The notes below the pieces were generated by a model. That model saw only the letters and a list, made by a program, of their open reading frames with translations, did not search any database and was not told the origin of the DNA. The position numbers and the translations under genes were made by a program. Positions 15,761-62,272 of a stretch of DNA of 64,000 nucleotides are shown piece after piece (position 1 is the first letter of the stretch; every line of letters starts with the position of its first letter). Source of the stretch: Gammaproteobacteria bacterium (lineage in GTDB: Bacteria; Pseudomonadota; Gammaproteobacteria; SZUA-140); contig WFVD01000018.1 in NCBI GenBank assembly GCA_015491865.1, forward strand, positions 62,001-126,000, in the 5' to 3' direction.

Positions 15761-18196
15761 ATGGCGCAGAATGAAGAGCTAACCGAAGTGAATGAAGAGC
15801 AGACAATTCTCCCTGTTTTGCCACTAAGAGATGTGGTTGTTTATCCTCATATGGTGATCCCACTGTTTGTTGGTCGAGATAAATCGATCAAGGCACTGGA
15901 GGCGGCAATGGAACGCGACAAGCAGGTCATGCTGGTATCACAGCGTAATGCATCAATCGATGACCCGCAGGAAGAAGATATTTACGATATCGGAACTGTT
16001 GCAACAATCCTGCAGATGTTGAAACTTCCTGATGGCACGGTCAAAGTGCTGGTAGAAGGGATTGAACGCGCGCGTACGATCCATTTTATGGGTACACAGG
16101 AATACTTTGTAGCGCAGATCTCGATGTTACGAGCAGCTGAAATGCCAGAGCGAGAGGCGGAGGTGTTGAGCCGCTCGGTATTAGGTCAGTTTGATCAATA
16201 TGTAAAATTGAACAATAAAGTGCCGCCGGAGGTGCTCTCATCGCTCGCCTCGATAGAAGATGCCGGGCGACTTGCTGATACCATCGCAGCCCATATGACG
16301 CTGAAAGTGGAAGAGCGCCAGGAGCTGCTAGAGCAGGTCGAAGCGCGTCTGCGTCTGGAGCGGCTGATGAGTCTGATGGAATCTGAAATTGACCTTCTTC
16401 AGGTTGAGAAACGGATTCGTGGGCGAGTGAAGCGCCAGATGGAAAAGAGCCAGCGCGAGTACTACCTGAATGAACAGATGAAGGCGATTCAGAAAGAGCT
16501 GGGCGATATGGATGATGTGCCTAACGAGCTCGATGAGTTAACGCAGAAGATTGAAAAATCGGGTATGTCGAAAGAGGCAAGGAAAAAGGCCGACGCCGAA
16601 CTGAATAAATTAAAGATGATGTCACCCATGTCGGCCGAGGCCGCCGTAGTGCGTAATTACATCGACTGGATAACCAGTGTGCCGTGGAAAAAACGTAGCA
16701 AGATCTGCCGTCAGCTGGCGAAGGCGGAAGATGTGCTAGAGACAGACCACTTTGGTCTGGAAAAGGTTAAGGAGCGTATTCTCGAATACCTGGCAGTGCA
16801 ACAGCGTGTCGACAAGCTAAAGGGGCCTATTCTCTGTTTAGTAGGGCCTCCAGGTGTGGGTAAAACCTCGCTGGGGCGTTCGATCGCGCGCGCAACGAAT
16901 CGCAAATTTGTCCGCATGGCGTTAGGTGGTGTACGTGATGAGGCTGAAATACGGGGCCACCGTCGCACCTATATTGGCTCAATGCCGGGTAAGATTGTGC
17001 AAAACCTTGCCAAGGTTGAGACACGTAATCCACTGTTCCTGCTGGATGAGATTGACAAGATGGCCAATGATTTTCGGGGTGATCCGGCATCGGCGCTGTT
17101 AGAGGTGCTTGATCCTGAGCAGAACAGCACCTTTAATGATCACTACCTGGAAGTCGATTATGACCTTTCTGACGTGATGTTTGTCTGCACCGCCAATAGC
17201 ATGAATATCCCCGGTCCGTTGCTTGATCGGATGGAGGTAATTCGTCTTTCAGGTTATACCGAAGATGAAAAGATCAATATTGCACAGCGTTATCTACTGG
17301 AAAAACAGATCAAGGATAACGGCTTAAAGAAAAATGAAATTAGCATTTCAGAAGGGGCGATTCGAGACATTGTTCGTTACTACACACGTGAAGCGGGTGT
17401 ACGCGGTTTAGAGCGTGAGATCTCAAAAGTGTGTCGTAAGGTCGTTAAAAGCATCCTGTTAAGTGATAGCAAAAAGAAGGTCGTGGTTGGCTCCCGTAAT
17501 CTATCAAAATACCTGGGTGTACGGCGTTTTCGTTTCGGTCTGGCTGAAGAGCATGACCAGGTCGGCCAGGTCACCGGGCTGGCATGGACTGAAGTGGGCG
17601 GTGAACTGCTGACCATTGAAGGCACCGTGATGCCCGGTAAAGGCAAGCTGACAATTACAGGGCAGATTGGTGATGTGATGCAGGAGTCTGTACAGGCGGC
17701 GATGACAGTTGTGCGTAGCCGTGCGAATCTGCTGGGTATAGATAGTGAGTTCTACCAGACCAATGACATTCATGTGCATGTGCCTGAAGGCGGTATTCCC
17801 AAAGATGGCCCAAGTGCAGGTATCGGTATGTGTACTGCATTGGTCTCGGCATTAACGGGTATTCCTGTTCGCTCAGATGTCGCGATGACCGGCGAGATTA
17901 CACTGCGTGGCGAGGTACTTCCTATTGGCGGCCTTAAGGAGAAATTGCTGGCGGCTCATCGAGGTGGCATTAAAACCGTCTTGATCCCTGATGACAACCG
18001 ACGTGATCTTGTTGAGATTCCGGCTAACATCAAAAAGGATCTGGAGATTAAACCCGTGAAATGGATCGATGAAGTGTTACAGACAGCACTACAGCATATG
18101 CCTGAACCCATTGTAAATAAAGAGGGTGAAGGTGAAATTAGCGCAAATAAAAAAGGTGCTAAAGCGAAGAAAGGGAGTTATATCCGTCCTCATTAA
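15761..18196 (+). CDS. lon: ATP-dependent protease Lon
   Basis: A cytoplasmic AAA+ serine protease that degrades misfolded and regulatory proteins. The 811-residue protein is slightly longer than E. coli Lon (784). Seen: the N-terminal LAN domain ([20 protein letters not shown]), a coiled-coil with [17 protein letters not shown], Walker [10 protein letters not shown], Walker [11 protein letters not shown], and the protease domain with the Ser685/Lys728 dyad (DGPSAGIG and [13 protein letters not shown]). The C-terminal 40 residues are lysine-rich and extra compared with E. coli. It has its own upstream region with a likely heat-shock promoter and ends in a strong terminator. Confidence 0.98.
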
Positions 18197-61725: not shown

Positions 61726-61753
61726 AAAAAACGGGCTAAATATTTTAGCCCGT
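61726..61753 (-). terminator. Terminator of the PEP-CTERM gene
   Basis: On the minus strand a ten-pair perfect stem (ACGGGCTAAA with its complement), a three-base loop and a T6 tract. It lies about 75 bases after the PEP-CTERM stop. Confidence 0.85.
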
Positions 61754-61825
61754 CTAGTTAAATAAACGCCGCTATCTCTCCGTGCCACTACAGTGTAGTG
61801 AGCCAAAAGGCGCTTTATACGGCAC

Positions 61826-62032
61826 CTATTTTTTATACTTTCCAGCAAAATAGAGTATGGCTGCAACGCCCGCACCGAAGAGTAACAGGGCGCTGGGTTC
61901 CGGTACCGATACTGGTGGCCCAGAACCAGAACCAGAACCAGGCAATGGATCGTGAAAGCTTGCAAAAACAGATGTTGAGATGAGGGAAAGTGCGGTGGCG
62001 ATGCTAGAACTTATAACGACAGAACGTTTCAT
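61826..62032 (-). CDS. Very small PEP-CTERM sorting-domain protein
   Basis: A 68-residue protein made of an N-terminal signal peptide (about 1-24, cleavage after VFA), a 19-residue spacer with a (GS)n tract, and a complete PEP-CTERM tail: VPEPSALLLFGAGVAAILYF then AGKYKK (residues 43-68). PEP-CTERM tails are recognised by exosortases and are usually attached to much longer exported proteins. Here the released peptide would be about 20 residues. The perfect ribosome site AAGGAG and the terminator show that it is a real gene. A role in an extracellular matrix or as a decoy or modified peptide is speculation; no exosortase is in the window. Confidence 0.85.
   Translation of the reverse strand: MKRSVVISSSIATALSLISTSVFASFHDPLPGSGSGSGPPVSVPEPSALLLFGAGVAAILYFAGKYKK
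61921..61940. repeat. Hexanucleotide tandem repeat inside the PEP-CTERM gene
   Basis: CAGAAC occurs three times in tandem (61921-61938) and encodes the Gly-Ser tract on the minus strand. A change in copy number adds or removes two residues and keeps the frame. Confidence 0.7.
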
Positions 62033-62272
62033 GACTGCTCCTTATGTCTCTAGAATTGAAAGTGCTTGTCTCTCTTCTGCACACAGGCAGCATATACGAC
62101 TGGCGAGCATTAAGGAACCTCTCATTAGTTGCCTTGTCCATCATAAAGTTAAAGATTGCAAGTGGTTTAAATACTAAAGATGCAGTGAGATATAAGTTTT
62201 TTACCGTACGGGCTTTGTATGCATTTTAGCAGCGATCTCTTTTATCAAATCAACGAAAAATAGAGCCAGCCG

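Follow-up and report, generated by a model that had tools for sequence, protein, structure and literature searches.

The closest described relatives of the gene reported here belong to the XrtA/EpsH exosortase system, whose PEP-CTERM proteins (TIGR02595, PF07589; PMC1569441) pair a signal peptide with a C-terminal tail made up of a PEP motif, a hydrophobic helix, and a basic terminus. In the published promoter of such genes, a PEP-CTERM box (TTTACA) is followed by a sigma-54 -24/-12 site at a mean distance of 63 nt. This arrangement precedes 99 of 167 published proteobacterial genes, and is therefore common but not required. A second described relative, the PepA protein (NF033554), is floc-associated in Aquincola and Zoogloea, and its expression is RpoN-dependent (PMC9850573).

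Here, we analyzed ORF68, a 68-residue PEP-CTERM protein gene in a 64,000-nt window of a gammaproteobacterial genome assembly (GCA_015491865.1, contig WFVD01000018.1; genome G000 below). Like the XrtA/EpsH proteins, ORF68 has a signal peptide, as judged by eye, and a PEP-helix-basic tail, is a single-gene unit preceded by a fairly large intergenic stretch, and comes from a genome with an XrtA exopolysaccharide cluster. Unlike them, it has a body of just 18–19 Gly/Ser/Pro residues, where theirs usually exceeds 150, and it is preceded by neither a PEP-CTERM box nor a sigma-54 site; its orthologue also reads SEP in place of PEP. It has the PEP-CTERM tail in common with PepA, but the NF033554 model spans 261 positions and ORF68 matches its tail only, reaching 10 bits where the cut-off is 80.

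Gene architecture and the sister-genome orthologue

ORF68 (translation MKRSVVISSSIATALSLISTSVFASFHDPLPGSGSGSGPPVSVPEPSALLLFGAGVAAILYFAGKYKK, with an ATG start) is a real gene that encodes little more than two sorting tags. Its stop-to-stop frame is just 71 codons, which rules out a longer in-frame version. See Table 1 for the coordinates of all features. Read by eye, the signal peptide MKRSVVISSSIATALSLISTSVFA has a charged start, a hydrophobic stretch, and an AXA-type site, SVFA. The tail scored 27.3 bits against PF07589 (cut-off 20.7) and 19.0 bits against TIGR02595 (cut-off 16), which is modest, and its basic end is weak (KYKK). PF07589 gave no match above cut-off in any of 14 control genomes, so a chance match is unlikely for the ORF68 tail. 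The preliminary description, made from the sequence alone, had read the gene as a signal peptide, a spacer of about 19 residues, and a PEP-CTERM tail, with a good ribosome site and its own terminator, and had proposed the PEP-CTERM HMM check reported above. Each of these elements is borne out, the signal peptide by eye. No full-length NCBIfam family covers ORF68 or the other body-less PEP-CTERM proteins described below.

Table 1. Features of the ORF68 locus in the window (G006, sister genome)
Feature	Position	Strand	Evidence
ORF68, 68-aa PEP-CTERM mini-protein gene, stop codon included	61826..62032	-	ORF; PF07589 and TIGR02595; G006 orthologue, dN/dS 0.20
Signal peptide, residues 1-24, predicted cut after SVFA	61961..62032	-	Sequence, judged by eye
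Spacer, residues 25-43 (SFHDPLPGSGSGSGPPVSV)	61904..61960	-	Sequence; orthologue shorter by one Gly-Ser unit
Tail of PEP motif, hydrophobic helix, and basic terminus (residues 44-68)	61829..61903	-	PF07589 and TIGR02595 above cut-off
Shine-Dalgarno AAGGAG, 5 nt upstream of ATG	62038..62043	-	Sequence; same in G006
Leader, 77/78 bases same in G006	62033..62110	-	P = 1.4e-4 vs flanking intergenic DNA
Intrinsic terminator of ORF68	61729..61755	-	12-bp stem, minus-strand U-run, fold z = -5.1; same in G006

Among 55 genomes, one clear orthologue was found, a 66-aa protein on contig C44 of the sister MAG Chromatiales bacterium HyVt-459 (G006). The locus is syntenic, with isocitrate dehydrogenase and GNAT genes on one side and an ABC transporter on the other. 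A scan of the genome contigs using the ORF68 protein itself as query returned no match. In a 20-kb DNA comparison with G006, only short stretches were conserved. The two ORFs are 94.5% identical and the 78 nt before the ATG are 98.7% identical, against 91–92% for flanking genes and 83–88% for intergenic DNA. The ORFs differ by 8 synonymous and 5 nonsynonymous changes. Tests on two sequences only are modest evidence, and they give a dN/dS of 0.20, a probability of 0.008 for 5 or fewer nonsynonymous changes of 13 under neutrality, and leader conservation above the flanking intergenic DNA (Table 1). The same genome pair gives dN/dS values of 0.26 (GNAT gene) and 0.07 (ABC transporter). On this comparison, the ORF68 orthologue looks selected. 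The motif VPEP of ORF68 becomes VSEP in this sole orthologue, with the first P of PEP replaced by S, in a genome that has XrtA. The tail exceeds the PF07589 gathering score in both species, and the missing Gly-Ser unit is an in-frame indel.

The GNAT gene is present without an adjoining ORF68 in G004, G018, and G017. Genome G009 was left out of this comparison because its contig stops ~200 nt past the GNAT gene. We rejected a link between ORF68 and the GNAT gene, as the latter is convergent, occurs in these relatives without ORF68, and matches no exosortase-associated acyltransferase model.

These comparisons bear on whether ORF68 is a deletion relic, that is, what remains of a normal PEP-CTERM gene after loss of its body, with signal peptide and tail now joined and the gene drifting to loss with little or no function. 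Such a relic would fit the single orthologue, the three relatives with a GNAT neighbor and no ORF68, the missing PrsR/sigma-54 promoter, the SEP motif and variable Gly-Ser count, and the fast turnover of PEP-CTERM gene sets (PMC1569441). Against it stand the low dN/dS and its departure from neutrality, the in-frame nature of the indel, and the near-identical leader, as well as the recurrence of the architecture in other families, where the promoter is the system's own (see below). We consider a relic unlikely.

The XrtA locus of the window's genome

The preliminary description had held that the absence of any exosortase from the genome would count against its reading of ORF68. The G000 assembly indeed has no match to PF09721 (nothing at E <= 10) or to TIGR02602, but it does have an XrtA cluster, which stops just before the expected exosortase A. 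Five PEP-CTERM proteins above cut-off are encoded in the assembly. The exopolysaccharide cluster is on contig C12 (12,347 bp; L061/L062) and includes genes for PrsK, PrsR, PrsT, an XrtA export protein, a chain-length determinant, a kinase-like protein, an outer-membrane-like protein, an XrtA deacetylase, and FemAB. This contig is interrupted at both ends, as PrsK is cut at its start and FemAB runs off the end. In G006, the gene following FemAB is an exosortase A fused to EpsI (TIGR03109, 360 bits). Since C12 ends inside FemAB and exosortase A comes next in the sister genome, an assembly gap is the simplest reading, and the G000 exosortase is probably hidden in it. A true loss was rejected as less likely, because the XrtA cluster is broken off at a contig end. 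Furthermore, the phylogenetic profile of PrsK, PrsR, and PrsT is exactly that of the PEP-CTERM box, which was found in all PEP-CTERM-positive proteobacteria studied (Haft et al. 2006, PMC1569441). The presence of these three genes on C12 backs the placement of an exosortase in the gap.

We also considered a TIGR03108 asparagine synthase on contig C4 as a marker of the rest of the locus. It scored below its cut-off and is no such marker. G000 is rated 99.99% complete, yet its exosortase is seemingly missing. Two other genomes of the same genus, G005 and G001, have three or four PEP-CTERM proteins each and no exosortase match, likely due to fragmentation.

The missing exosortase match, the SEP motif of the orthologue, the low TIGR02595 score, and the lack of a box would also fit a small membrane protein of two helices, one that is not an exosortase substrate and whose PEP match is incidental. 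This is highly improbable, as the PF07589 gathering score is exceeded in both species and the same genome encodes further PEP-CTERM proteins as well as the XrtA cluster.

Other body-less PEP-CTERM proteins and their promoters

ORF68 had been presented initially as a lone oddity, a view that did not hold. Among the matches listed for the class, there are at least eight further complete body-less PEP-CTERM proteins, from seven or more families other than that of the window. Most of the eight were retrieved with a profile that had one of them in it. They are from G346 (L116, 57 aa), G151 (L117, 49 aa), G375 (L118, 51 aa), G132 (L119, 47 aa), G354 (L120, 58 aa), G333 (L121, 52 aa), G158 (L122, 57 aa), and G249 (L124, 58 aa). 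G151 and G249 represent one genus, and the genes otherwise come from different families. Each of the eight has a Shine-Dalgarno-like stretch, an ATG, a signal peptide (judged by eye), 5–17 further residues, and a PEP-CTERM tail above both cut-offs. All are 47–58 aa in length and apparently single genes. For most PEP-CTERM matches listed for the class, the open frame exceeds 150 codons.

Like these proteins, ORF68 joins its signal peptide to PEP-CTERM by a short spacer. The spacers of all nine are unrelated in sequence and as short as 5 residues (examples are LPNPL, GVPTA, GPPIT, and GGTGPLPDIS), with the tails conserved. An exosortase is present in seven of the eight genomes, the exception being G158. 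A by-eye search of the body-less loci showed no common neighbor gene. Judged from these sequences, the near-direct fusion of a signal peptide to PEP-CTERM recurs and is not a one-off architecture. In the open-access literature that we searched, no paper names short or small PEP-CTERM proteins; subscription papers were outside this search.

The count leaves out short frames lacking a start codon and a signal peptide (L050, L071, L072, L073, L075, L076, L077, L109, L112, and L115). One of these, L109 (G033:C10:742500-743200), is a 70-codon frame with a good PEP-CTERM tail and no ATG, GTG, or TTG, and is possibly a decayed body-less gene. Also left out is a 109-aa protein of G163 with a longer His/Asp-rich body. 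Its gene (L123:2059-2385) lies beside exopolysaccharide-related-looking genes, and the string pattern described below finds no PEP-CTERM box for it. Additionally, a ThiO-like FAD oxidoreductase gene, recognized by eye, is within ~2 kb of the body-less genes L117 (G151) and L122 (G158), which are from different families; this is perhaps chance.

We then searched for promoters using a simple string pattern built from the published box description and the general sigma-54 consensus. A PEP-CTERM box with a sigma-54 site is upstream of six of the eight body-less genes (G346, G151, G132, G354, G158, and G249), and for each of the six, 0 of 300 shuffles reached the score. The sites at G249 and G151 are weaker, having wider spacings of 86 and 73 nt, respectively. 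In the 131 kb around the six genes the pattern occurs seven times, at the six mini genes and at one other PEP-CTERM gene. These six genes are predicted to belong to the PrsR regulon, which resembles the RpoN dependence of PepA. The pattern at these genes is independent evidence for their functional membership of the system.

Unlike these six genes, ORF68 lacks an upstream PEP-CTERM box and sigma-54 site, and so does its orthologue; the same is true of ~40% of published proteobacterial PEP-CTERM genes. Other PEP-CTERM genes of the window's genus do have this promoter. A consensus search for a sigma-70 promoter of ORF68 found none. The window's sole PEP-box-like match, on the minus strand near 16206, is inside a lon-like gene of the opposite strand, and we take it as chance.

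With spacers so short and unrelated and tails conserved, the tail itself could be the functional part. A cheap substrate would load, titrate, or report exosortase capacity, for example to PrsK/PrsR, and the freed peptide would be a by-product. Predicted PrsR regulation, at six of the eight genes found elsewhere, is consistent with such a role, but the window's gene has no PrsR promoter. We regard this role as rather improbable for ORF68.

Proposed processing and significance

We favor the reading that ORF68 is a genuine substrate, though minimal, of exosortase A (XrtA/EpsH) sorting and yields a peptide of ~20 residues, and give it a probability of roughly 55%. It draws on the match to both tail models, the constrained orthologue and leader, the XrtA cluster in the genome, the eight or more body-less proteins elsewhere, the box and sigma-54 site at six of them, and the exosortase in seven of the eight genomes. 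Counting against it are the lack of an exosortase in the assembly, the SEP of the orthologue, the lack of a box or sigma-54 site, the single orthologue, and the modest tail.

As a minimal substrate, ORF68 would be exported by Sec, and signal peptidase would remove residues 1–24, cutting after SVFA. The PEP-CTERM helix would then hold the remaining product in the inner membrane until exosortase A cuts it at the PEP motif. This would leave a Gly/Ser/Pro-rich peptide of ~20 residues starting from S25 (SFHDPLPGSGSGSGPPVSVPEP or shorter). The peptide would then be set free or become attached to a partner in the envelope or exopolysaccharide; the preliminary description had proposed a matrix peptide, a signal, or a modification carrier as its possible role. 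For the organism of ORF68, we infer the exosortase, the cleavage, and the fate and role of the peptide.

Because the recurrent body-less proteins share no body, function most likely resides in the tail together with a short unstructured peptide, and their recurrence suggests the tail or a very short peptide set free from it as the working part. More tentatively, body-less PEP-CTERM proteins may form a functional class, widespread among these bacteria, from which signal peptidase and exosortase A release a Gly/Pro-rich peptide of 5–20 residues, acting as a signal or joined to exopolysaccharide; we hold this broader proposal to be possible but doubtful.

Known exosortase A substrates are large and diverse, whereas natural substrates of 47–68 residues are small enough to synthesize, label, and follow by mass spectrometry. 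With such substrates, the cleavage site of exosortase A and the partner it attaches would become directly measurable. If the sole role of these genes is to supply a tail or a tiny peptide, then PEP-CTERM does more than sort folded proteins. If body-less proteins are indeed peptide precursors, exosortase would be a peptide-maturation enzyme as well, and not just a protein sorter.
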